64,000 nt of DNA from Varunaivibrio sulfuroxidans (GTDB lineage: Bacteria > Pseudomonadota > Alphaproteobacteria > Rhodospirillales > Magnetovibrionaceae), in assembly GCF_029318635.1 (NCBI RefSeq), contig NZ_CP119676.1:1549001-1613000 (forward strand), given 5' to 3'. The notes below the pieces were generated by a model, which saw only the letters and a program-made list of their open reading frames with translations, did no database searches and was not told where the DNA came from. This document shows positions 49,909 to 62,234 of the stretch, piece after piece; position 1 is the first letter of the stretch; each line of letters starts with the position of its first letter. The translations under genes and the position numbers were made by a program.

Positions 49909-49983
49909 GGGCGCGTAGCTCAGCGGGAGAGCACTGCCTTCACACGGCAGGGGTCACAGGTTCAATCCCTGTCGCGCCCACCA
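49909..49983 (+). tRNA. tRNA-Val (CAC), integration site of the element
   Basis: A 75-nt cloverleaf. GGGCGCG pairs with CGCGCCC, the D-arm reads AGCTCAGCGGGAGAGC, the anticodon stem CTGCC/GGCAG encloses loop TTCACAC (anticodon CAC), and the T-arm reads ACAGGTTCAATCCCTGT. CCA is encoded. Its last 48 bases are repeated exactly at 60016-60063. Confidence 0.97.
49936..49983 (+). repeat. attL: 48-bp direct repeat (3' half of tRNA-Val)
   Basis: The stretch from GCCTTCACACGG to GCGCCCACCA is identical to 60016-60063. It covers the anticodon loop to the encoded CCA, the usual target of tyrosine integrases. Confidence 0.95.
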
Positions 49984-50053: not shown

Positions 50054-50073
50054 TGGGACACAAATGGGACACT
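50054..50073 (+). repeat. 20-bp repeat near the left end (arm-type integrase site, copy 1)
   Basis: TGGGACACAAATGGGACACT is identical to 59893-59912 near the right end and contains TGGGACAC twice. Its position, 70 bp inside attL and just before int, fits an integrase arm-binding site. Confidence 0.75.
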
Positions 50074-50101: not shown

Positions 50102-51115
50102 ATGGCAACAATTGAGCAGCGCGGCCCTTATCAGTGGCGTGCCAAGGTGCGGCGCAAAGGCTACCCAGTCCAAACCAAGACCTGTGATTACAAAGCCGAA
50201 GCAGAGGCCTGGGCGCGTGACATCGAAGGGCAGATGGACAGGAGCGCTTTTGTTGATCGCTCCCTCTCTGAACGCGAAACCTTCGAAGAGGTGATCAAAG
50301 CCCACCTCAAGAACATAACGCCGACGCACAAGGGTGCTGAATCGGAGAAAATGCGCTTGGATAAATTCATGCGTGATGAAAATGAGCTGTGCGCTTATGC
50401 GATGGCCAACCTACGCACCGAACATTTTGAAGACTACCGCGACCGGCGGCTAGAACACGTCAAACCTGGCACAGTTGCACGTGAGCTCAATCTTCTCCAT
50501 AGCGTGATCCAGCACTGCCGCCGCCGCCTATCCCTACTTGAAAACCCAATTTCTCATGTCAAACGACCAAAGGTTAGAGACGCCCGCTTTTCACGCCTTG
50601 AAGACGGTGACGAAGAAAAACTTCTGACTGCCATGGATGACTGCAGAAATGAATTTATCAAGCCCGCCGTAATTTTGGCCCTGGAAACGGCCATGCGACG
50701 CGGTGAACTGCTTTCGCTAAAATGGGACGATGTAGACCTGACCAAGCGAACAGCAACGCTTCACGACACCAAAAATGGAGAAGCGCGGGACGTGCCCTTG
50801 ACCACACGCGCCGTTGGCGTATTTCAAAATCTCCAGGATGCACGCGACAAAAAGAAAGTCGTCGGCATTAAGCGCGACCTCCGGGTATTCCCCATATCAG
50901 ACCAAAGCCTCAAATGCGCCTGGGAGCGCGGGCGCAAGCGCGCGGGGAAAGAGGACTTCACTTTCCACGATCTACGCCACGAAGCCATCTCGCGGCTATT
51001 TGAGAGAGATTGGGACGCCATCAAGGTTGCTGCTATCAGCGGACACCGAAACATGCAGTCGTTGAAGCGTTACGCCAATTTCAGGGCTGAGGATTTAGCG
51101 AAGGAGTTGGGTTAA
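50102..51115 (+). CDS. int: Tyrosine-type site-specific integrase
   Basis: The recombinase that inserts and excises the element, 337 residues. The N-terminal arm-binding part (residues 1-60, YQWRAKVRRKGYPVQTKT) and SAM-like core are followed by the catalytic domain: Arg in ETAMRRGELLSLKWDD near residue 198, HxxR in FHDLRHEA near 288, and His plus Tyr in ISGHRNMQSLKRY near 316-327. All catalytic residues are present. It starts 118 bp after the tRNA, the usual place. The glycosylase gene begins four bases after its stop. Confidence 0.94.
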   Translation: MATIEQRGPYQWRAKVRRKGYPVQTKTCDYKAEAEAWARDIEGQMDRSAFVDRSLSERETFEEVIKAHLKNITPTHKGAESEKMRLDKFMRDENELCAYAMANLRTEHFEDYRDRRLEHVKPGTVARELNLLHSVIQHCRRRLSLLENPISHVKRPKVRDARFSRLEDGDEEKLLTAMDDCRNEFIKPAVILALETAMRRGELLSLKWDDVDLTKRTATLHDTKNGEARDVPLTTRAVGVFQNLQDARDKKKVVGIKRDLRVFPISDQSLKCAWERGRKRAGKEDFTFHDLRHEAISRLFERDWDAIKVAAISGHRNMQSLKRYANFRAEDLAKELG

Positions 51116-51118
51116 GGC

Positions 51119-51745
51119 ATGGATATGCAATTCATTGATGACGCAGTCATCGTACTCTCTGCCCAAGACGCCGTGATGCGTGAGGTATTAAGGTCCATTG
51201 AACCAATATCGCCGCCCTCGAAAGACCTTTGCTTTGAAAACACGGCAAGAATTGTAATTAATCAGCAGCTTTCAGGGAAAGCCGCTAACACAATTTTTTC
51301 CCGAATATTAAATGTAGTAGAAGAGTTCACCCCTTCATCAATTATCGAGACGCCTACGGACAAACTTAGAAATTGCGGATTATCCCGTGCGAAGATTCAA
51401 TATATCAAAGCGCTTGCAGAAAAATGTCAGCATGATCAAAGCTATTTAACTTCATTCATAAGCATGACTGACGAAGCGGCCTTTGCTCGCATTCGTGAGA
51501 ACAAGGGCTTTGGTGATTGGAGCGCCTATATATTTTTGTTATTTCACTTGAAGCGCCCCAACATATTCCCCGAAGGGGATGCCACGTTAAACTCAGTAAT
51601 TAGCGAACTGTATGGTGTGTCGAAGTCAAACACGGATGATATCTGTCGTATGTCTGACAAATGGTCTCCATATAAAAGCATCGCATGCTTGGCACTATGG
51701 AGATGGGCGGATTCTGGAAAGCCAGCCATCAACACCCATGTGTGA
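51119..51745 (+). CDS. HhH-GPD DNA glycosylase, AlkA-like
   Basis: A 208-residue base-excision glycosylase. TARIVINQQLSGKAANTIFSRI is the AlkA-type substrate-pocket region. LRNCGLSRAKIQYIKALA and NKGFGDWSAYIFLLFHL form the helix-hairpin-helix, and the catalytic aspartate is in FPEGDATLN. WSPYKSIACLALWRW closes the fold. The gene is separated from int by three bases, so it is co-translated with the integrase. Together with the C5 methyltransferase in the same element it recalls the mismatch glycosylase encoded next to a C5 methylase on the archaeal plasmid pFV1; the true substrate is unknown. Confidence 0.83.
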   Translation: MDMQFIDDAVIVLSAQDAVMREVLRSIEPISPPSKDLCFENTARIVINQQLSGKAANTIFSRILNVVEEFTPSSIIETPTDKLRNCGLSRAKIQYIKALAEKCQHDQSYLTSFISMTDEAAFARIRENKGFGDWSAYIFLLFHLKRPNIFPEGDATLNSVISELYGVSKSNTDDICRMSDKWSPYKSIACLALWRWADSGKPAINTHV

Positions 51746-51787
51746 TTGCTCTAGCACATCACACTAATATCTAAAATTGACCGGGGA

Positions 51788-52870
51788 TTATTCAGTTTTG
51801 AATATTTCATTCCAGCCGGTCTTCGTTTTGATTGGCCTACCTATATCTTCTATGAATCCCCTCAATTCCAATAATATTTCTTCAATTTGAGATGCCGTAA
51901 GCAAGGAAGAAATTGAGTATATGAACTGCCTAATGTCGACAAAATTTATAGTCTTACCTTTAAAGTTTAGTGCGTTATTTTGAACCCCATCCAGCTCCTG
52001 GATGTCTTCAGGAATTCTGCAAATAAATTGCACTGGCCGATCAAGCAAGCTTAAGGAATCCAGCGCCTCAATGCAGTCATCCAACCGCTTTTTATCAATC
52101 TTCTTTACAGTAATTTCAAATAAATTAACCGGGTTACCATCTAGCTCGAGCCAAATATCTGCAGGCTTTTTTGATGTTGTATTCGTGCCAAAGACGCTTT
52201 CATCACCACCCTCAATTTTATTACATGAACCATCATATAGCTTCTGTAGCAGCCTTGAGACAACGAACTGAGGAACAGTTCCGCTTTCTGGATATTCAAG
52301 CAAAAATGTTGAACACTTGTGAGCAAATTTTTGATTAGACAAGCCCCGCTCATCTGGTGCGCAAACAGCTATAGCTGCAACTGTAGCTGCATACTCCACT
52401 AGCTTAAAAAAGAAGAAGTCAACTAAGCTTTCTCGTTCCTCGGCGGGTGCTGACTGGATATACCGGAGATAATCTACAGCTGCTTGAGCTGCTACCTGTG
52501 GACGTTTACCCTGCGCCCAATTTTCATCTAAAACATTAGTATTTTTAGCTACGTTTAGCGGGTCTGATTTCCCACAAGGGATACGGCCTTGATAGGCATA
52601 AAATATGCCTTGCTCGAATATCGCACGTGGGTTGCAATCATAAAATCTGTTCAGGGGGTCATATTGCGCATCTATAAATTGACCAGTTATTGCCGTAGCA
52701 ACGACTCCCCTAAAGCCCATGGCTTTTGTAAATATCAGATTTTGTAAAGTTGTTTTCAGTTGTTCGTAATCTGTCAGTGCACTGAAATCAGCTTCTGATA
52801 GGCTAGCCACATGCTCTAGTTTTCGTTCGATAAATTCTTGAGCTTTTTTGTTTCGCACATCTGTACTCAT
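51788..52870 (-). CDS. Probable type II restriction endonuclease
   Basis: A 360-residue protein of unrecognised exact specificity. A PD-(D/E)xK-like core is visible near residues 240-262: PADIWLELDGNPVNLFEITVKK, with the aspartate, the glutamate and a nearby lysine. The helical N-terminal half and a GNPxxLxExxxK core remind me of the SacI family, whose enzyme is also about 358 residues and is linked to a C protein and a C5 methylase, but I cannot test this. It overlaps the controller gene by ATGA and is divergent from the methyltransferase, the normal restriction-modification layout. Confidence 0.7.
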   Translation of the reverse strand: MSTDVRNKKAQEFIERKLEHVASLSEADFSALTDYEQLKTTLQNLIFTKAMGFRGVVATAITGQFIDAQYDPLNRFYDCNPRAIFEQGIFYAYQGRIPCGKSDPLNVAKNTNVLDENWAQGKRPQVAAQAAVDYLRYIQSAPAEERESLVDFFFFKLVEYAATVAAIAVCAPDERGLSNQKFAHKCSTFLLEYPESGTVPQFVVSRLLQKLYDGSCNKIEGGDESVFGTNTTSKKPADIWLELDGNPVNLFEITVKKIDKKRLDDCIEALDSLSLLDRPVQFICRIPEDIQELDGVQNNALNFKGKTINFVDIRQFIYSISSLLTASQIEEILLELRGFIEDIGRPIKTKTGWNEIFKTE

Positions 52871-53130
52871 TTGTCATTCAACCCGAAGAATTCTTTAACG
52901 AGTTGGTTCAATTTGGCATTTTCGCGAATGCGATAAAAATCCAAAAGTTGTTTGAACTCCCATACATCCAAACGCTGTTCACAAGTTTCTATTTTAGAAA
53001 CTTCTGACTGTGTCCTCCCGAGTGCTTGCGCTACCTCATCTTGCGAGAGGCCCAAGCGTTTGCGTTCTGCGCACAGTTCCTCGATAAACTTCGCGTACTG
53101 CTCAATATGAATTGATTTTGCTCTTTTCAT
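52867..53130 (-). CDS. Controller (C) protein, XRE-type helix-turn-helix
   Basis: An 87-residue regulator. ERKRLGLSQDEVAQALGRTQSEVSKIETCEQRLDVWEF is a standard XRE helix-turn-helix. Size, position just upstream of the nuclease with a 4-bp overlap, and divergence from the methyltransferase fit a restriction-modification controller, which delays nuclease expression until the host is methylated. Its operator should be in the 63-bp gap to its right. Confidence 0.85.
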   Translation of the reverse strand: MKRAKSIHIEQYAKFIEELCAERKRLGLSQDEVAQALGRTQSEVSKIETCEQRLDVWEFKQLLDFYRIRENAKLNQLVKEFFGLNDK

Positions 53131-53193
53131 GCCTGCAAATATCTTCTATAAGTCAAAATATTCGAAAATAGAATAAAATGGGGACTGTTAAGA
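53131..53193. promoter_or_regulatory. Divergent promoter/operator of the restriction-modification system
   Basis: The 63-bp gap separates the controller and the methyltransferase. TTCTAT (53144-53149) and ATAGAA (53168-53173) form an inverted repeat around an AT-rich centre containing AATATT. This is a plausible operator for the controller. GGGGA at 53180 is the methyltransferase ribosome site. Confidence 0.55.
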
Positions 53194-54264
53194 ATGAAAG
53201 CTGTTTCACTTTTTTCGGGCGCTGGCGGTATGGATGTCGGGGCTATCAGAGCAGGGTTTGAAGTTGTTGCAGCCTCAGAGATAGATGCTCACGCTTGCTC
53301 CACTTACCGGCGAAACCACCCGGGAACAGTTCTGATTGAAGGCGATATTGACAAACGCATGTCCGAGATAATGAGTTTTAAGGGCGTTGATTTAGTCATT
53401 GGTGGCCCTCCTTGTCAGGGCTTCTCAGTTGCTGGAAAAATGGACCCTTCTGACCCCAGGTCAAAATTAGTTTTCTCATTTTGTTCAGTTGTAGAGAAAT
53501 TACTCCCAAGAGCATTCGTTATGGAGAATGTTAAGGCTCTTGGAAAGTTGGCTAAATTCGAGGACGTCCGTCGAGAAATAATTCGTAGAATGCGTAACGC
53601 AGGTTATCAAACGACAGTTCATATTTTAAACGCAAAAGATTTTGGAGTCCCACAATCTCGTGAGCGTGTTTTTTTTATCGGAACAAGAGCCTGCTCAACC
53701 GTCCTTGAAACAAACGATTTTGAAAAGTTCAAACAAGAGGCAATTTCCCTCCGCCACGCCATTGCTCACCTAGGAAGAGCAGGATCACTAAACAATTCAC
53801 CAATAACAAAGGCTAAAATTACCTTAGCTAAAAAACCAGTACTTAGAAAATCTCCATACGCTGGCATGCTGTTTAATGGTCAGGGCCGCCCACTTAACCC
53901 TGATGCTTGGTCTAGCACCTTGCCTGCAAGCATGGGGGGGAATAGAACGCCTATAATTGATGAAGAACACCTCTATGGTGGCGCTCAAAGTTGGGTTGAG
54001 GAGCACCATAGAAAAATACTATCTGGAGCAATACAGAGTGAGTACAAAGAAGCCCCTAGCAGACTAAGGCGGCTAACTATTCGTGAAGCTGCAGTCTTGC
54101 AGTCCTTCCCTGAGAGCTATTGTTTCGAGGGGCCTCAGTCTAGAATTTTTAGCCAAATTGGAAACGCTGTACCATGCAAATTAGCTGAATCAGTCCTAAA
54201 AGCCGTCAAGCATACGCTCTCAAATACTGCCACGGACCTACGGATTGCAAAACAATCAGCCTAG
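53194..54264 (+). CDS. DNA (cytosine-5-)-methyltransferase
   Basis: A type II C5 methyltransferase of 356 residues. Motif I SLFSGAGGMDVGAIRAGF is at residues 4-21. Motif IV GGPPCQGFSVAGK has the catalytic cysteine near residue 75, motif VI reads VMENVKAL, motif VIII is in DFGVPQSRERVFFIG, and motif X reads QIGNAVP. The target-recognition part lies between residues 190 and 290. All catalytic residues are present. It is divergent from the controller and restriction genes and protects the element's target sites. Confidence 0.95.
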   Translation: MKAVSLFSGAGGMDVGAIRAGFEVVAASEIDAHACSTYRRNHPGTVLIEGDIDKRMSEIMSFKGVDLVIGGPPCQGFSVAGKMDPSDPRSKLVFSFCSVVEKLLPRAFVMENVKALGKLAKFEDVRREIIRRMRNAGYQTTVHILNAKDFGVPQSRERVFFIGTRACSTVLETNDFEKFKQEAISLRHAIAHLGRAGSLNNSPITKAKITLAKKPVLRKSPYAGMLFNGQGRPLNPDAWSSTLPASMGGNRTPIIDEEHLYGGAQSWVEEHHRKILSGAIQSEYKEAPSRLRRLTIREAAVLQSFPESYCFEGPQSRIFSQIGNAVPCKLAESVLKAVKHTLSNTATDLRIAKQSA

Positions 54265-54482
54265 CCTCCCTCATTCCGTTTGATACTGTAAAATACGGCT
54301 TCAGAACTTGTCTGCAAGGAGTACGAATTCTTGGATAAGCCATAACGCCCAATTTGCCCGCTATGAGCCGTGTTGCACCGCCAGCATCCATCTAGCTGAC
54401 AAGGCTAGACTTGTGCTACCATTGCAAGAACATGAATTCGAAAGTAATATTCGTTCACCATTTACCAGGGGGGATAGATAGA

Positions 54483-55322
54483 GTGCGTGTTCAGACTGCA
54501 TTAGGGATCGTAAATACTATTCAGCTTGCCAATGCGAATTCGAAACTTTCGCGAATGCAAAACGATCTGGCATATCAGGCTCAACAGGCTTTCTCTCAAG
54601 CTCAACGACAGTTACAAGTTGAGCAAGTTAGACAACTGATATTTGATGCGCGTGTCCAGTGGGAGGAGATTGAAAACATCGCCACAACGGACCCAATTCA
54701 AGCGTATGTATTTTCACGCTCAACGAATAACCTTTTACAAAACATTTCCCCTGAAATGCTGCCTGAAATTAGCGACAAAGAATACCTCCACAAGGTCAGC
54801 AAATATGCGAACTCTATCAATGCAAACCTAGAGCGCACACTTGGTCAAGTTGCTCTCATTAAAATTGACAGAAGTGAAGAACTTGGAGAGATCATTAAGC
54901 AGCTGTCATACATGATTTTCTTGGTTTCATCCTTAGATCACGTACGTTCAAGCTTTTTTGGAGGTGCAAAAAAACTCCGTAAAAAAGGGCTAGAGCAAGT
55001 CCTAAACGTAGCAGATGAATATGGAATTTCAGAGCTTCTGGAAAATGGTCAGAGCCTTATCGAAAAATATCAAAATGGTCGCGTCAAAAAATCCGTTCTC
55101 ATTAATGAAATCAAGGCTCAGGCGAAGCTCATGAGGGGGAACGGTATGGACTTCATTGATAAGTATCTCCTCACAAGCTTGCCACATGAAATCCGCTTAA
55201 AAAACGACATTCATGGGCTTGACCCAATGTTAGAAGAAGCAAAATCAGAACAAGCCACGATCATCAACGACTTACTTCCAGGCACTACACCTGCATCCGA
55301 AGCTGCACTTGCGAACACATGA
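54483..55322 (+). CDS. Hypothetical helical protein in the element
   Basis: I do not recognise this protein. From the GTG at 54483 (GGGGGG nine bases upstream) it has 279 residues; earlier in-frame ATGs at 54411 and 54432 lack ribosome sites. A long Gln/Ala-rich helix (about residues 20-60, AYQAQQAFSQAQRQLQVEQV) looks coiled-coil. A short hydrophobic stretch (LSYMIFLVSSL) is near the middle, and a basic KKLRKKG follows. It sits alone between the methyltransferase and the mobilization genes and may be cargo, possibly related to defence, but there is no direct evidence. Confidence 0.6.
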   Translation: MRVQTALGIVNTIQLANANSKLSRMQNDLAYQAQQAFSQAQRQLQVEQVRQLIFDARVQWEEIENIATTDPIQAYVFSRSTNNLLQNISPEMLPEISDKEYLHKVSKYANSINANLERTLGQVALIKIDRSEELGEIIKQLSYMIFLVSSLDHVRSSFFGGAKKLRKKGLEQVLNVADEYGISELLENGQSLIEKYQNGRVKKSVLINEIKAQAKLMRGNGMDFIDKYLLTSLPHEIRLKNDIHGLDPMLEEAKSEQATIINDLLPGTTPASEAALANT

Positions 55323-55767: not shown

Positions 55768-55863
55768 TGTTGTTTCCTAACTTGAGGGCCCGCGAAGCGG
55801 TGCTCGAAAGCAAGCGCCAATTCATGCCCCCGCCCTAGCGGATGTATGACATTGGCATCGCTT

Positions 55864-55929
55864 GCACATACCCTTTTTTAAAACTCTACCCCTCTAGCAC
55901 ATACCCTTTTTTAAAACTCTACCCCTCTA
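55864..55929. repeat. Tandem duplication of 33 bp at the relaxase 3' end
   Basis: 55864-55896 and 55897-55929 are identical (unit begins GCACATACCC). The second copy contains the last codons and stop of the relaxase gene, so the tail of the gene has been duplicated downstream of itself. Confidence 0.92.
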
Positions 55930-57887
55930 GTTTTTGTCCGTTGTTTCTTTAGATGATTAGCCGGTATTTTCAGACCATGCTCCCTCATGAAGGCTTTCAA
56001 TATTCTTTCGCCAGCGTCAAACAATCGTCTTTCCTTTGGCCCCGCAGGACCCTCTATCTTTTTTGCATTAAATGCCCACTGACGGGTGACCTTAAGAGTA
56101 GCCTCCAACTCCGCCTCGCACATTTTTGCAAACTTGTCGTGCATGGCTTGAAGCCGCCTTTGCGCTGCTTGTTTCCTCTCATAGTTTATCTCGTAGTTTG
56201 CCAATCCTTCATCATCGAAACGAATGGGTTCTATAGTAGAAGGAGCAGGTTTTTCATAAGCCTCTAGCTCAAGTATAATTTCAGCTTGTTCTCCATAGGG
56301 CCGAAGAATGGTTTTGGCCCTTTCCAAGCCTTCAATCAGAATGCGTACATCAACATCAAAGGGGTCACTTTCAAGTGCCTTGAGCAAAGCACCGTGTGCC
56401 TTGCTCGTCATTGTTAAACAAGCTGCGTTCATGCGGTCTGACATGGCATCAATTTTCTTTCGTCCATCCAACAAACTCAGGTGAACAATTTTGAGATCGC
56501 TAAGACCCTTTATTCGAAGCGTATTGTCAAAGTCGATTGAATGCGTGCCTATCGAGATTGGGTATGGTTTAGACGGGTTTGGCTTTTCTTTTGCTGGCTT
56601 CGACATGTCTCTATCTCCTAAAATTCTGGGTGAAGGTGAAGGCTTAAAATGTTGCGTTGTGACTTGCGTCTCCCTTCCATCAACAAGGCCTTCCTTTTGA
56701 ATTGGCTCCGTCGCACGTAGTTTTGTTTTAGCTTTCACGCGCTCATGACGGCGTTTCTCAAAAAATTCCATTTTTCTTTGCTCCGGTGTGATCGCGGGAA
56801 CACGGTCATATTTTTCTGACCGATAGCGCTCCCATGTCATACGAAACCGCTGTTGCAGTTTTTCACGCCCAAGACCTTTTCCGGAAACCTGCGTAAGTTT
56901 GCATTCATCACCAGCACTGTTTTCAATGACCATGCCGCGCCCTTCGGCCCGCAAATAGTAGCGATGTTTTTGCAGTGCGTTTTCTAGCTCATCCCAACTC
57001 TTGGCGGTGCTGAATGGTTTTGTCTGGCCAAGATTTTCAGCTACCTCACGAGCAAACTTTTTCATTGAGGCCGGACTTTTATTTCTACGCTTTCGCGGCA
57101 AAATGATTTCACCCGTCCTCACTTTTTCCCAGTCGTAAGCATTCCCAGTCTTAGGGTCTATCCAGCGCCCCGGCGTAACCTTCAAGCCATAGCGCTTCTC
57201 AAAATTACGATTCAGGGCCTGGAGCTTCACCAAATCGAATGACGGATCATTAACCCGAGCAGACGTTGGGTGAACCTTGTTGATTGCGAGGTGCATGTGA
57301 GGAGAGCCCGTATCGCAATGTACGACCAACAAGGCCTGGTGCTCAGTCATCCCGAGCGCATTAAGTGCCTCACGCGTATATTCATTCCAAAATTCAGAGG
57401 TTGCCTTTTTACGATCAGATGCGGGGAGAGAGACGACATAATGCAATGATGCAGATTGTTGCATCCTGGTATTCAGCGCCGCCGTTTCACCCATCTGCTC
57501 CGCGACTTGGCTTATCTGTTCTGCAGTCAATCTCTCTCCATCAAAAAAGTTTGTGTTAAATGCAGCCGCAAACTCAACACGTCCTTCTCCGCTAGGTGCG
57601 GCGCGCTCTCCATTTTTGCTCTCTCTCCCCTCCACTAGATACGCTGTGAGTTGCCGGAAATCGCGCTTGTGCTGAGCACGCATTCGAGGTTCAAGTGTAC
57701 GATTAACTTGGCGTCTTTTCGTTTTAGTGCGTGATCCAGATCGCGAACCAGCGCCAATTTTGAACTGGCTGTTTGGCCGAGTACGAGTCAATTCACGTAG
57801 GGCTGCTTCCTCGTCTTTTGAACAGCCCCTCCCTACACGATTATGATCATCATCACGGCGCATGATCTTCTTAGTGATCATGACCAA
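55911..57887 (-). CDS. MobA/MobL-type relaxase (MOBP-like)
   Basis: The nicking enzyme that starts conjugal transfer, 658 residues. The histidine motif LVVHCDTGSPHMHLAINKVHP near residues 184-204 is motif III of MOBP-type relaxases. The N-terminal domain begins with Lys/Arg-rich DNA-binding sequence. The region after residue 300 has no known helicase or primase motif and is rich in charged helices. The gene overlaps the MobC-like gene by 17 bp. It identifies the element as mobilizable. Confidence 0.85.
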   Translation of the reverse strand: MVMITKKIMRRDDDHNRVGRGCSKDEEAALRELTRTRPNSQFKIGAGSRSGSRTKTKRRQVNRTLEPRMRAQHKRDFRQLTAYLVEGRESKNGERAAPSGEGRVEFAAAFNTNFFDGERLTAEQISQVAEQMGETAALNTRMQQSASLHYVVSLPASDRKKATSEFWNEYTREALNALGMTEHQALLVVHCDTGSPHMHLAINKVHPTSARVNDPSFDLVKLQALNRNFEKRYGLKVTPGRWIDPKTGNAYDWEKVRTGEIILPRKRRNKSPASMKKFAREVAENLGQTKPFSTAKSWDELENALQKHRYYLRAEGRGMVIENSAGDECKLTQVSGKGLGREKLQQRFRMTWERYRSEKYDRVPAITPEQRKMEFFEKRRHERVKAKTKLRATEPIQKEGLVDGRETQVTTQHFKPSPSPRILGDRDMSKPAKEKPNPSKPYPISIGTHSIDFDNTLRIKGLSDLKIVHLSLLDGRKKIDAMSDRMNAACLTMTSKAHGALLKALESDPFDVDVRILIEGLERAKTILRPYGEQAEIILELEAYEKPAPSTIEPIRFDDEGLANYEINYERKQAAQRRLQAMHDKFAKMCEAELEATLKVTRQWAFNAKKIEGPAGPKERRLFDAGERILKAFMREHGLKIPANHLKKQRTKTRGVEF

Positions 57888-58203
57888 CCCTCCTGATCGC
57901 GGGGGCTAAGGTATCAAATACAAGCCGATACACTTCGTCCTCAAGGTGCGTAAGGCCATCTTGGTGTGCTCGCCTGACAATCTGATTCAGGTTATTACCG
58001 ATCAAAGTTAACTGCCTAATCGTCGCACGGTCAGAACTAGCCAAAATCTGGCTCAAACCACGTCTGCGGGTATACGTTGAGACACTCTTAATTCCGGCCT
58101 GGGCAGCCAACTCTTTAAGTTTTTCAAGCTCGGATTTTGATACGCGCACCGACAGTACAAGTGTGCGTTTTTCTTTTTGGGTACGATCATCAATATCAGG
58201 CAT
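57871..58203 (-). CDS. MobC-like relaxosome accessory protein
   Basis: A 110-residue DNA-binding protein. LVLSVRVSKSELEKLKELAAQAGIKSVSTYTRRRGL is a ribbon-helix-helix pattern, and RQLTLIGNNLNQIVRRAHQDG is typical of MobC/BexC-type mobilization proteins. It overlaps the relaxase start and would hold the oriT open for nicking. The oriT is expected in the non-coding region to its right (58204-58660). Confidence 0.82.
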   Translation of the reverse strand: MPDIDDRTQKEKRTLVLSVRVSKSELEKLKELAAQAGIKSVSTYTRRRGLSQILASSDRATIRQLTLIGNNLNQIVRRAHQDGLTHLEDEVYRLVFDTLAPAIRRVGHDH

Positions 58204-58660
58204 AAGACCTCCGCGAATTCAGAACTTGGGAGGTGGAACTTGGGAGGTGCTTGGGAGGTGCTTGGGAGGTGCTTGGGAGGTGCAAGCGATGCCAATGTCA
58301 TACATTCGCCAGAGCGAATGACCTGAATTGACGCTTGCTTTCGGGCACGCTGGCGCGGACCTCAAGGATGTGCATAACGTTCGCAACAGAAATGGGTTCA
58401 TCACAAAACCCCACTCTGCAGACAGCGCCACAGGCGTAAGGTGCGCGCCCTTGGGCGCATATGGCACCTGTTGAGGCCAAAGGCCGAGACGCCAGGTTGT
58501 CGCCCGCAGGCGACGCAATTCCATCTTGTTCGATAGGCCCAGGCCCGGTGTGGTGCTGCTCCGGTCGCTACGGCGCTATGTGAGGCGCGCTCCCTCCCAC
58601 AGCACCACACCAGGCCGAGAATTCTTAAGGTTCTTGTTAGCAGGACACCAATGTCCGGGA
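58204..58660. other. Non-coding transfer/replication region with iterons and inverted repeats
   Basis: About 460 bp between mobC-like and the Rep-like gene. CTTGGGAGGTG occurs five times from 58225 to 58282, the last four in exact 11-bp steps. GGTGTGGTGCTG (58547-58558) and CAGCACCACACC (58600-58611) form an inverted repeat that extends to 16 of 17 bp. A GCGCCC/GGGCGC hairpin lies near 58440-58470. Open frames here have no protein-like character. The likely contents are the oriT, for the relaxase, and perhaps a replication origin. Confidence 0.6.
58225..58282. repeat. Five iterons of 11 bp
   Basis: CTTGGGAGGTG starts at 58225, 58239, 58250, 58261 and 58272. The first two are separated by an extra GAA, the others abut. 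Just downstream of the Rep-like gene and upstream of mobC, such iterons are typical Rep-binding sites. Confidence 0.9.
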
Positions 58661-59224
58661 TCATGACGAATCCCCCCCACTGGTGTCCGCTATTTGGCCC
58701 TCACTCCAGACATTGGTGTCCGGAGACATTTGTATGTTTATGTCACCCTTGTGTACGTCAATATTGATGTTGATATCGCCAATATTGATTATGTTTCCGC
58801 TTCGATGTGCACCTAGCTCTTGTGAAAGCTTCTTAATCATTTTTTCCATTAGAGAGGGGATATAGTCGAACTCAATTAATTCATATTTTCCCGGCTCGGT
58901 TTCGACTCGGAGATAATCAACAATTGTATATTCGTACCCGCGACCACGTGGTGTTGCCTTTAACAAAGGTAACTCACGTTCACGCAAATCCTTTAAGGCA
59001 CGCCGACTCGTTTTTTCGCAATGACCAGCTATTTTGGCGATTTCATCAGCGGATGGAAAGCTGAGTCCCGAATATAAATTTGTGTGAGCTCTCACGATCA
59101 GCCATGTTTTTATTACCCCTTCATTCATGTCTCGTAAGCCGCCAGACAAAATGAAGTCATTCATTAATCTCGACCACGTGGCGTTAAAAAAAGGGTATTC
59201 TTTTTGAGAACTCTGCCGTCCCAT
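58661..59224 (-). CDS. Helix-turn-helix protein, possible replication initiator
   Basis: A 187-residue protein. The winged-helix part FPSADEIAKIAGHCEKTSRRALKDLRERELPLL is of the HTH_36 type common in plasmid replication proteins. Its C-terminal tail is Ile/Asn/Asp-rich (NIINIGDININIDVHKGDINIQ), with an alternating pattern that looks like a beta-strand repeat. It lies beside the iterons and follows the AlpA-like gene with shared bases at 59224. A role in replication or its control is inferred from position only; a transcription factor is equally possible. Confidence 0.6.
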   Translation of the reverse strand: MGRQSSQKEYPFFNATWSRLMNDFILSGGLRDMNEGVIKTWLIVRAHTNLYSGLSFPSADEIAKIAGHCEKTSRRALKDLRERELPLLKATPRGRGYEYTIVDYLRVETEPGKYELIEFDYIPSLMEKMIKKLSQELGAHRSGNIINIGDININIDVHKGDINIQMSPDTNVWSEGQIADTSGGDSS

Positions 59225-59562: not shown

Positions 59563-60015
59563 CTGCCATCTACTCTTGTGTTCGATGGCTACCCAGTATG
59601 GGCACGGTTTCTGTGCTGTCTACAAGCAAAGCGTCCGTGATATACCGAAGGTCAGTTTTTTACCCGTAAAATCAATACGTTACGAAGCAACTTTTTTCGG
59701 CTTTATATTTTTGCCATCTAATCTTGTATGTTCTGATGACTACCGATTATGGGCATATTTAGTAGCTTGTCTACAAGCCAAGCGTCCGTAGAGTGACGAA
59801 TACATTGATTTTAGTAAGTAATTTCAGATTGTTATAAAGATATATTTTTTAACTTACGCATCAATTTTCGACACGATCAACATCCCATAGCGTGGGACAC
59901 AAATGGGACACTAAATGCAAATACATTAAATAAGAACCAATAAGGTCGTATAAGTTAAATTGTTCTATAACAAAGGGTTGATAGGTAAAACCCCGGCAGG
60001 GATTGCATTATTTTC
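59563..60015. promoter_or_regulatory. Non-coding right-end region of the element
   Basis: About 450 bp, AT-rich, no gene seen. Two imperfect copies of an 86-89 bp sequence (59564-59649 and 59712-59800) share TGCCATCTA, TCTTGT, TATGGGCA, TGTCTACAAGC and AAGCGTCCGT in the same order. A 20-bp copy of the left-end repeat is at 59893-59912, about 100 bp from attR. It probably holds the promoter of the AlpA-rep genes and integrase or excisionase sites. Confidence 0.65.
59893..59912 (+). repeat. 20-bp repeat near the right end (arm-type integrase site, copy 2)
   Basis: TGGGACACAAATGGGACACT is identical to, and in the same orientation as, 50054-50073 inside the left end. Confidence 0.75.
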
Positions 60016-60063
60016 GCCTTCACACGGCAGGGGTCACAGGTTCAATCCCTGTCGCGCCCACCA
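60016..60063 (+). repeat. attR: 48-bp direct repeat (3' half of tRNA-Val)
   Basis: An exact copy of 49936-49983, without the 5' half of a tRNA in front of it, marking the right boundary of the element. Confidence 0.95.
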
Positions 60064-60149
60064 CAAAAACCCAGACCCTAAAGGTTGACGTGAGACCCGA
60101 AATTTCCTCCATTTTAAAGTAGAGTCCATCACCGAAGAAGGAGATGGAT

Positions 60150-60416
60150 ATGAAGCGTTCACGTTTCACGGAAGAACAGATCATCGGGATTTTGCGGGAG
60201 CAAGAGTCTGGCCAGAAGACGGCTGATGTTTGTCGTCGCCACGGCATCAGCGAAGGCACGTTTTACAAATGGAAGTCGAAATTTGGCGGCATGGACGTGT
60301 CAGACGCCAAGCGCTTAAAAGCGCTGGAGGCGGAGAACAACCGGCTCAAAAAGCTATTGGCCGAGACCATGCTCGACAACGCCATGCTTAAAGACATCAA
60401 TTCAAAAAAGTGGTGA
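60150..60416 (+). CDS. IS3-family transposase OrfA
   Basis: An 88-residue helix-turn-helix and leucine-zipper protein. [17 protein letters not shown] and [21 protein letters not shown] are the HTH_Tnp_1 signature, and [25 protein letters not shown] is the zipper. Two starts exist: the ATG at 60144 and the ATG at 60150, which begins MKRSRF as relatives do; GAAGGAG lies upstream. It overlaps OrfB by 7 bp, where a -1 frameshift normally makes the full transposase. Confidence 0.93.
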
Positions 60417-61303
60417 CGCCCGCCGCCAGGCGAGAGGCTGTCGCTCATCTTCGAAAAACCTATGAGGTGAGCGAGCGGCGGGCGTGCCGCACCACAGGAA
60501 CGGACCGTAGCTCGGTTCGTTACCGGTCCATCAAACCGGACGATGCACCGATCCGGGGGCGTCTTCGTGCGTTGTCTGCGGAACGTCGGGGATTTGGCTA
60601 TCGTCGTTTGCACATTATGCTGTCCAGGGAAGGCGTACACATGAACCAGAAGAAGCTGAGGCGCTTATATCGAGAAGAAGGCCTTCAGGTGCGTAAACGC
60701 GGCGGGCGCAAACGTGCTTTGGGCACACGGGCACCGATGCTGCTGCCTCAGGGGCCGAATCAGCGTTGGTCGCTGGACTTTGTCTCAGACGCCTTGGACG
60801 ACGGAAGGCGGTTTCGCATTCTGTGTATCGTTGATGACTTCACGCGCGAATGTATTGGGCTTGTCGCCGATACGTCCTTGTCGGGTCTGCGAGTGGCTCG
60901 GGAACTGGATGATATCATCAAACAACGTGGCAAGCCGCGTATGGTGGTCAGCGACAACGGCACGGAGCTGACCAGTATCGCAATCCTCAAATGGTCACAG
61001 GAGCGGCGGATCGAGTGGCATTACACTCAGCCGGGCAAGCCAACGCAGAACGCCTTCGTGGAAAGCTTCAATGGACGACTGCGAGATGAGTGCTTGAACG
61101 AGACGCTGTTCTCCACGGTGAGGCACGCGAGGGCCGTGCTGACGGCTTGGAAGTATGACTACAATCACATCCGCCCACATTCCGCTCACGGCGGAGCCAC
61201 GCCAGTGGAATTTGCCGATCAAGCTGATATGGGGCATGCCCCATATCAGCTTGATCAAAGAGCCCGCAAAGGGCAATGTTTTGAAATCGGGCTCTCCTCA
61301 TAG
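60410..61303 (+). CDS. IS3-family transposase OrfB (DDE integrase core)
   Basis: A catalytic subunit of 297 residues read from about 60410. The DDE residues are visible: [22 protein letters not shown] and [19 protein letters not shown] with the DD(35)E spacing. The N-terminal [21 protein letters not shown] part is the HTH_21 segment. The last 25 residues are encoded by a 40-bp perfect palindrome and its flank, an unusual tail. Expression should need a -1 frameshift from OrfA. Confidence 0.93.
61217..61256. repeat. Perfect 40-bp palindrome inside OrfB
   Basis: GATCAAGCTGATATGGGGCA (61217-61236) is followed without a loop by its exact reverse complement. It lies within the last codons of OrfB. 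Confidence 0.95.
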
Positions 61304-61321
61304 GTGGGGGAAACTTGGGTC

Positions 61322-62234
61322 TCACGTCACCTGTTCGGAGGTGGCGGCCTGAAGGCTGTTCAGGTAATCAACGGCGCGCTGTGCGTGAGCGGCTGCGGTG
61401 AAGATGGCCCGTTTGTCTTTCTTGAGAACTTCAAGCCAGCTTTCGATATAGGCAGCGTGGTCGTCCCGGACCTCCAGCGTAATCCCAAGATCAGCGGAGA
61501 GGAATGCTGATCCTAGCTCGGCAACCAGTTCTTCCTGTGCATAGCCTTCGTCGCCCCAGCGTTTTCGACCGAAGCTACGATCCAGCCGGTTCGGATGACG
61601 AGTCCAATGCGTGGTCTCATGCGCCAGTGTGGCGTAATAGCTTTCCGCGTCGCGGAAGCTTTCGAAGGGCGGAAGCTGGATACGGTCTGATCCGATGGCG
61701 TAGTAGGCCTGATTACCGCTATGGCTGATATTGGCCTCGGTGGCGGCGAAGTATTCTTCGGCGTGATCTATGCGCTGGACAGGATCAAGAACCGGCTCGG
61801 CGAGTTGGTAATAATCAGAAGGCAAGCCTTCGATCTGCTCGACGTTAAAGACGGTATAGCCTTTCATGAAGGGGATGGCGTGTTCGGATTCCTCGCCGTC
61901 GGCGTTTTCCTCGGTGCGGGTGATGGTATTGGCGTAGACGACCAGTTCGCCCTTCTCGCCTTTGCGGACAGTGGCATCAAGTTCCTTGGCTTGGCGGAAT
62001 GTCATCCAGATCGGAGCAGCGTGGCCTTTTTCCATGGCGGCGGACCAAAGCATCAGAATGTTGATGCCGTTATAGGGCTCGCCGTTGTGGCGTAGTGGCT
62101 TTGTAATGCGTCCTGCGGCATGTTCTGCGTTCCAGGGTTTCATCCATGTTCTGACGCCTTGTTCAAGATCAGCGATGATTTTATTTGTGACGCGGCTGGT
62201 AAACGTCCTGCCGGGGTTTGTCTTTGCTGGTCAT
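61322..62234 (-). pseudogene. ardC: ArdC-type antirestriction protein gene, frameshifted and cut at the IS
   Basis: The main frame (61322-62143) encodes the ArdC N-terminal ssDNA-binding part (MKPWNAEHAAGRITKPLRHN, PIWMTFRQAKEL) and the zincin protease site LAHETTHWTRHP with its later ligand ELVAELGSAF. The true start is at 62234, with AAGGAG ahead of it, and reads MTSKDKPRQDVYQ. That frame joins VTNKIIADLEQGVRTWMKPW only after a one-base shift near 62190-62196, and it stops at once if unshifted. At the other end the stop codon lies inside the IS inverted repeat. The gene is therefore damaged at both ends. ArdC proteins protect incoming DNA from restriction. Confidence 0.75.

Follow-up and report, generated by a model that had tools for sequence, protein, structure and literature searches.

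The usual companion of 5-methylcytosine (C5) DNA methylases is Vsr, and on the mobile replicon pFV1 the HhH-GPD glycosylase Mig.MthI (MIG), which holds an Fe-S cluster, lies beside a C5 methylase. EcoT38I, a restriction-modification (R-M) system for the site GRGCYC, likewise uses a C5 methylase. In eukaryotes, C5 DNA methyltransferases (DNMTs) form 3-methylcytosine (3mC) as an off-target product and co-evolve with ALKB2 (PMC9246332, in excerpt). Deinococcus radiodurans AlkA2 excises 3-methyladenine, 7-methylguanine, 1-methyladenine (1mA) and 3mC, and neither ethenoadenine nor hypoxanthine; the excerpted text of the same source states that no AlkB gene was found in D. radiodurans (PMC5128194). 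We analysed the window, a 64,000-nucleotide (nt) stretch at positions 1549001-1613000 of the 3.07-Mb genome of Varunaivibrio sulfuroxidans, in which an integrative mobilizable element encodes a predicted AlkA2-type HhH-GPD glycosylase beside a type II R-M system with a C5 methylase.

The association of this glycosylase with R-M systems is well supported by gene neighbourhoods, which point to the R-M system as its likely partner in the element, rather than to the integrase. As to function, our tentative first choice, held at a little under an even chance, is that the glycosylase is an accessory of the mobile type II R-M system and starts the repair of misplaced methyl groups that methylases make on ring nitrogens. 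The broader proposal that R-M systems of bacteria and phages carry their own methylation-error repair, an AlkA2-type glycosylase removing 1mA and 3mC, seems possible and somewhat less probable. The genes concerned are as follows.

50102-51115, + strand: tyrosine integrase (int; Pfam PF00589, E 2.3e-30)
51119-51745, + strand: AlkA2-type HhH-GPD DNA glycosylase, 208 amino acids (aa; Pfam, PDB sequence match and AlphaFold fold match)
51788-52870, - strand: type II restriction endonuclease (R), 360 aa, predicted EcoT38I fold (PADLOC REase_II, E 3.6e-4, and AF2 model)
52867-53130, - strand: helix-turn-helix (HTH) controller, C protein-like (PF13560, E 6.8e-9; upstream of R in relatives too)
53194-54264, + strand: C5-cytosine DNA methyltransferase (M; PF00145, E 1.4e-69; nearest PDB entry M.HaeIII)

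The original prediction of an AlkA-like glycosylase three bases after the int stop holds: the TAA stop ends at 51115, the three bases GGC follow, and the glycosylase ATG lies at 51119, with AGGAG 12 bases upstream of it, within int. Because the gap is 3 nt, the two genes are probably read as one transcript, from which we infer co-expression. The protein matches HhH-GPD (PF00730, E 4.7e-15, above the cut-off), and its PDB sequence ranking is headed by D. radiodurans AlkA2 (2yg8, 2.2e-22), followed by 2h56 of Bacillus halodurans, Schizosaccharomyces pombe Mag2 and Mag1. An AlphaFold model (mean pLDDT 87) has the same neighbours, with Mag2 at Z 20.4 and 2yg8 at Z 19.6. Trp134 stands directly after the HhH GxGx motif and Asp154 is the catalytic Asp (GFGDW...PEGD); both are invariant across an 11-row alignment, and a simple pattern finds the Trp in 86 of 94 relatives, 6 of the remaining 8 rows hitting another G-x-G stretch and 2 none. 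CX6CX2CX5C, the Fe-S motif of HhH-GPD enzymes, is absent from the glycosylase and present in the other two HhH-GPD proteins of the host, which we take to be MutY and Nth. At the HhH position AlkA has Trp, MIG Tyr, MutY Ser, and both EndoIII and OGG1 have Lys (excerpt of PMC11754123). On the basis of Trp134, Asp154, the missing Fe-S motif and the nearest solved relatives, we judge the enzyme to be AlkA-like in its tested features (the short AlkA2 form) and not MIG-like, in line with the predicted difference in fold from the pFV1 enzyme.

The neighbouring R, HTH controller overlapping R, and divergent methylase form a type II R-M system with a controller (R-C/M), a layout kept in most mapped relatives; the C5 methylase was correctly placed in the same element by the original prediction. 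By sequence, R matched nothing significantly in Pfam, nor in PDB by phmmer or profile, and EcoT38I was found through the AF2 model alone (mean pLDDT 91), which aligns with EcoT38I (7edb) at Z 22.6 over 330 residues, the next other entry reaching Z 8.0. The glycosylase is placed between int and the R-C/M system, 42 nt from the convergent R and 1.45 kb from M. Its GC content (0.44) brings it closer to the R-M genes (R 0.41, M 0.45) than to int (0.54); three flanking host genes have values of 0.64-0.66.

Relatives of the glycosylase were read in their gene neighbourhoods (loci numbered with L). On viral or phage contigs with a relative, an R or M gene lay nearby in 5 of 10 from a mixed-seed scan and in 8 of 16 with two more sources included; a scan seeded with an R-M-linked clade gave a further 9 of 10, for 17 of 26 overall. 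The scans with alignments A3 and A8 started from R-M-linked members. Viral integrase-locus clusters, taken as a control, had any R or M gene in 7 of 48 and a C5 methylase in 6 of 48 cases. No M or R gene of the probed kinds was found near chromosomal relatives, meaning those on genome contigs (0/59 with 1.5-kb flanks, and 0/20 in a subset of these with flanks to ~6 kb). Fisher's tests, on small numbers and, for the control, in a comparison tilted towards the finding because detection was richer in glycosylase loci (phmmer, Pfam, PADLOC and map reading, against phmmer alone in controls), some R-M probes were derived from the glycosylase loci themselves and many control loci were one-sided, gave p 0.007 for 8/16 vs 7/48 and p 0.0004 for 8/16 vs 0/20 chromosomal. 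In the larger set, script-tested, the comparison was 15/26 vs 7/48 (p 0.0002); L298 and L300, added as R-M-linked via PADLOC after this test, raise the 15 to 17 of 26. Of the 26 viral or phage relatives, 11 had a C5 methylase at most about 3.6 kb away, against 6/48 in the control (p 0.008).

The 26 contigs are those of L042, L043, L152-L156, L158-L162, L169, L170, L252 and L253 (16), and of L293-L302 (10). L157, with match figures identical to those of L156, was treated as a repeat of it, and L163-L168, L171 and L292 lie on contigs already counted. L159, L161, L252 and L253 resemble pieces of bacterial chromosome, of which the viral collections include some, and were retained. L302, which ends 48 nt past its match, was scored as a miss, as was L162, where glycosylase fragments have a weak N6/N4-type methylase match (1.8e-8) ~1 kb off; the same match was scored as a hit in the control. 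Exact 8-residue-pattern scans of viral contigs with a single glycosylase or R sequence found no relative, and alignments found them. Among plasmids, 33 records matched and seven distinct contexts were read (L041 nearly without annotation), of which one is R-M-linked (L038; the same module occurs in Comamonas). On the Nostoc plasmids L035 and L036 an AlkA-type gene is followed by a small-molecule-type methyltransferase gene (PF08241), which is not an R-M gene. A slot survey compared with Pfam 66 neighbour proteins, hand-picked from 111 of at least 90 aa; HhH-GPD, with two members, was the sole base-repair family matched at least twice, single-member families being incompletely shown.

The glycosylase adjoins R genes of several types: EcoT38I-like (window, L043, L296, L073), Eco47II (L153), HincII (L169) and SacI family (L038), among others. 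In L073 it lies on the same strand as R and, with a GTG start, overlaps the stop of R by 4 nt, and in L153 it follows a C5 methylase and an Eco47II-family R, 4 nt on. L154 joins C5 methylase, open reading frame (ORF), Vsr and glycosylase in a single gene run, the searches assigning no family to the ORF between M and Vsr. Further orders with C5 methylases are glycosylase, restriction endonuclease and methylase (L293); HTH, glycosylase, two endonuclease-like ORFs and two methylases (L042); and glycosylase, methylase and HNH gene (L156). L298, L300 and L301 read glycosylase, ORF, methylase (C5 in L301). Other methylase types occur in L169 (N6 methylase, HincII-family R, glycosylase), L155 (D12 methylase, restriction endonuclease, HTH, glycosylase), the plasmid locus L038 (D12 methylase, SacI-family R, glycosylase) and L152 (glycosylase, possible restriction endonuclease at E 0.004, N6/N4-type methylase). 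The order mutM, R-M, alkA, deacetylase-like in L073, from a metagenome-assembled genome labelled Klebsiella pneumoniae, is unlike Klebsiella by eye, a possible binning error.

In five phage loci (L294-L297, L299) the methylase that accompanies the glycosylase shares 53-55% identity with that of the window. In L043 and L296 the order is HTH gene, glycosylase and then an R 28-30% identical to the window R. The L296 methylase, 55% identical to the window's, is separated from these by a transposase-like ORF and a second HhH glycosylase, and the sole C5 methylase found in L043 lies ~26 kb off among structural genes. A different R accompanies the window-family methylase in L294, L295, L297 and L299; PADLOC PDLC03473 is matched by those of L294, L295 and L299, and the L297 endonuclease shares 67% identity with the L294 one. 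As read from gene order, the glycosylase stays with the methylase in these five loci while R changes. Its gap to R is 2-15 nt in L294-L297; in L299 the glycosylase frame, possibly broken, stops short and leaves 162 nt to R. The postulated tie to C5 methylases is supported, the family recurring beside C5 methylases or R-M genes in phages, a plasmid module and genomes. Second HhH glycosylase genes between R and the C5 methylase were seen in L297 (6735-7547) and L296 (8279-9106), with remnants, by eye, in L043 (6728-7009) and L295 (6734-6943); the L297 protein is nearest to a Clostridium 8-oxoguanine glycosylase (E 1.3e-49) and the L296 protein was found through the glycosylase profile alone.

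On a quick tree of 94 relatives, in which L169 was still labelled non-R-M, the R-M label changes 7 times against a shuffled mean of 10.5, and 0 of 500 shuffles were as low. One clade (SH-aLRT 97) groups L073, L154, L038 and L155, each linked to a different R-M system, and also holds the genome-contig gene L122/L269, which has no probed R-M gene within ~6 kb; another (SH-aLRT 99) unites L042, L043 and L169, all R-M-linked.

Under the accessory-repair reading, the methylase would occasionally methylate N3 instead of C5, leaving a lesion that blocks base pairing; the glycosylase would flip out and remove the cationic base in a pocket with Asp154 and Trp134, and host AP endonuclease, polymerase and ligase would complete the repair. 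The proposed substrates are 3mC for C5 methylases and possibly 1mA in relatives beside N6-type methylases, which may make 1mA off target; catalysis, substrate and the production of 3mC or 1mA by methylases of this family are all inferred. In the host genome nothing matches the AlkB family PF13532, and of its three HhH-GPD matches the two besides the window glycosylase carry Fe-S motifs. A 3mC glycosylase beside a C5 methylase fits such a host, with neither an AlkB match nor another HhH-GPD gene free of the Fe-S motif. There are two Tag-family matches (AAG-type enzymes were not searched for). AlkB absence was also considered as the reason for keeping the glycosylase and proved uninformative across the genomes with this R-M system: 12 of 33 (from 33 of the 35 loci, L056 and L062 left out) have AlkB. 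A host Vsr gene (contig 1332687-1332893, L291) lies next to a GIY-YIG gene and to the end of a C5 methylase; on its gene content this region is a second C5 R-M-like cluster of the host with the classical repair partner.

Several observations weigh against this reading. Methylases other than C5 occur in at least four of the linked systems (D12 in L038 and L155, N6 in L169, the N6/N4 family in L152), so that 3mC alone cannot explain the family; since N6-type methylases are also partners, we adopted the wider reading of 3mC plus 1mA. In the first set of contigs, C5 methylases alone were not significantly more frequent than in the integrase control (4/16 vs 6/48, p 0.25). Most relatives of the window R-M system are without a glycosylase, which adjoins 2 of 35 genome loci (L073, L068) and 0 of 3 plasmids, some loci ending at contig edges; within this R-M family the glycosylase is therefore optional. 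In L068, moreover, the glycosylase gene shares bases with an rng-like gene, and the R-M system may have inserted next to what is a housekeeping gene. AlkB does not track the glycosylase, being present in the genome of L073 and without a match in that of L068. The branch of the window enzyme is very long (2.56) and has no firm position in the tree, and the enzyme's R-M link may for that reason be a separate capture. Finally, the top fold match, Mag2, is by its title a glycosylase homolog acting at abasic sites, which leaves room for a non-catalytic role.

A role in integration, in which the glycosylase would repair or protect the att site or the entering strand, was part of the original prediction and now appears very improbable. 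The 3-nt spacing to int speaks for it, as do viral contigs L161 and L170, where an integrase gene lies ~1 kb or less from a glycosylase relative; both have the look of element boundaries adjoining chromosomal repair genes. In L170, by eye, an Ada-like gene follows the AlkA gene. Against it, a survey of 297 genomes of the order found an integrase match at E <= 1e-30 in 87, the window's own included; 29 loci were taken, lower-ranked matches being without a locus, and after exclusion of L111, which ends at a contig edge, none of the 28 with downstream sequence had a glycosylase after int. An ORF of at least 60 aa started -20 to +60 nt from the int stop in 14 of the 28 (a raw count with no chance control), and of ten of these ORFs that were scanned nine were without a Pfam family, pointing to a likely cargo slot downstream of int. 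The neighbours of the glycosylase in R-M-linked maps are R, M, HTH, Vsr and other ORFs, no integrase being recognised in the part of the maps probed for int. The earlier proviso that the pair might occur only here thus applies to int with glycosylase, in the sample examined, and not to methylase with glycosylase, and the finding as a whole argues against service in integration.

Three further explanations were weighed. The glycosylase could be cargo for alkylation repair in general, retained because AlkA and AlkB are missing from the host, with R-M adjacency as hitch-hiking; the missing AlkB match, the lack of another HhH-GPD gene without an Fe-S motif and its optional status in the R-M family favour this, and we consider it somewhat unlikely given the two Tag-family matches and the repeated tight linkage to different R-M systems, with none near 20 chromosomal relatives. 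A fair rival, which we nonetheless think unlikely, makes the enzyme a second weapon of a defence module, excising modified bases from phage DNA that escapes R, as Brig1 does. We know of no phage base that would be an obvious AlkA2 substrate. The weapon explanation gains from an association with R-M in general, not with C5 methylases alone, and from direct adjacency to R in several loci; DNA glycosylases are, besides, known anti-phage effectors, with Brig1 homologues reported near restriction endonucleases and other defence genes (excerpts of PMC11078745 and PMC13160076). The best structural matches of Brig1 are, however, uracil-DNA glycosylases (PMC11078745, in excerpt), and here the predicted fold is that of AlkA2, with the AlkA-type Trp and Asp. 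Quite unlikely, in our view, is the thymine glycosylase of the original prediction, a T:G (or U:G) mismatch enzyme for deaminated 5-methylcytosine that would parallel Vsr and the pFV1 enzyme Mig.MthI. A C5 methylase in the same element, and near the 11 relatives counted above, accords with it, as does the Vsr of the host's other C5 methylase. It is disfavoured by Trp134 where MIG has Tyr, by the lack of the Fe-S motif of the host's other two HhH-GPD proteins, by nearest solved relatives that are alkyl-base enzymes and Mag2, by the presence of Vsr together with the glycosylase in L154 and already in the host, and by N6-type methylase partners, as T:G repair fits the C5 cases only.

In the open-licence full-text literature, PMC10273834, PMC12707154, PMC4081073, PMC8557920 and PMC8547433 included and with subscription papers and REBASE outside the search, we found no description of an AlkA-type gene as an R-M companion. 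The family is a candidate R-M accessory that searches limited to T:G repair genes would miss. If the accessory-repair reading is true, bacterial DNA methylation has a second hidden cost besides deamination, and small modules (methylase and glycosylase, with or without Vsr) offer a way to measure it directly in laboratory E. coli. The broader proposal would imply that DNA methylases in general pay for off-target N-methylation, in addition to the T:G damage that Vsr deals with, and would amount to an independent parallel, based on gene linkage, to the DNMT-ALKB2 pairing.

The mobilizable element is bounded by 48-nt repeats, identical copies of the tRNA-Val 3' end that stand 10,080 bases apart, and has the order int, glycosylase, convergent R, HTH controller, divergent C5 methylase, ORF and relaxase with its NikA/MobC partner. 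With an integrase, att repeats at a tRNA gene, a relaxase and no conjugation apparatus seen, it is an integrative mobilizable element; the ORFs scanned between the att repeats, in a search that was not exhaustive, included no transfer-channel genes. Its remaining features are as follows.

49909-49983, + strand: tRNA-Val (CAC), integration target (ARAGORN)
49936-49983, + strand: attL, 48-nt repeat equal to the tRNA-Val 3' end (exact direct repeat with 60016-60063)
54411-55322, + strand: ORF, 303 aa (no Pfam family above cut-off)
55911-57887, - strand: MobA/VirD2-type relaxase (PF03432, E 3.3e-24)
57871-58203, - strand: NikA/MobC-like mobilization protein (PF21983, E 9.2e-16)
58661-59224, - strand: ORF with an HTH_36 match under the Pfam cut-off
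60016-60063, + strand: attR, 48-nt repeat (exact copy of 49936-49983)

Identical 20-nt repeats inside both att ends (50054-50073 and 59893-59912) are candidate arm sites for integrase or excision, and long inverted repeats (55787-55872 and 58275-58361; 42 and 38 nt, 88% and 79% complementary) lie either side of the relaxase genes. Immediately beyond attR are transposase genes at 60077-61338 and 61322-62143 on the - strand (PF01527; PF00665/PF13683), followed by an ArdC-type antirestriction gene (PF08401, PF18818) that perhaps belongs to a neighbouring element.

Compared with described systems, the glycosylase by sequence most resembles D. radiodurans AlkA2 (DR_2584), a short AlkA without the N-terminal domain whose W and catalytic D align with those of the window enzyme; the fold match spans 197 residues at 30% identity, and the window enzyme differs in being only this similar and on a long branch. 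To our knowledge, no R-M link is known for D. radiodurans AlkA2. The window R has the predicted fold of EcoT38I at 15% identity. Vsr, a T:G endonuclease of a different fold, is similarly an accessory DNA-repair gene travelling with R-M systems, and it co-occurs with the glycosylase in L154. Mig.MthI has Tyr at the HhH position and its Fe-S cluster, the window enzyme Trp and no Fe-S motif. Brig1, Brig3 and R.PabI are likewise glycosylases in prokaryotic defence (as far as the excerpted sources go), with the differences that Brig1 resembles uracil-DNA glycosylases and that in R.PabI the glycosylase is itself the restriction enzyme. Closest in proposed logic is the eukaryotic DNMT-ALKB2 pairing, in which a 3mC repair enzyme is kept with the methylase (excerpt of PMC9246332): there a dioxygenase and genome-wide co-occurrence, here a glycosylase and gene linkage.

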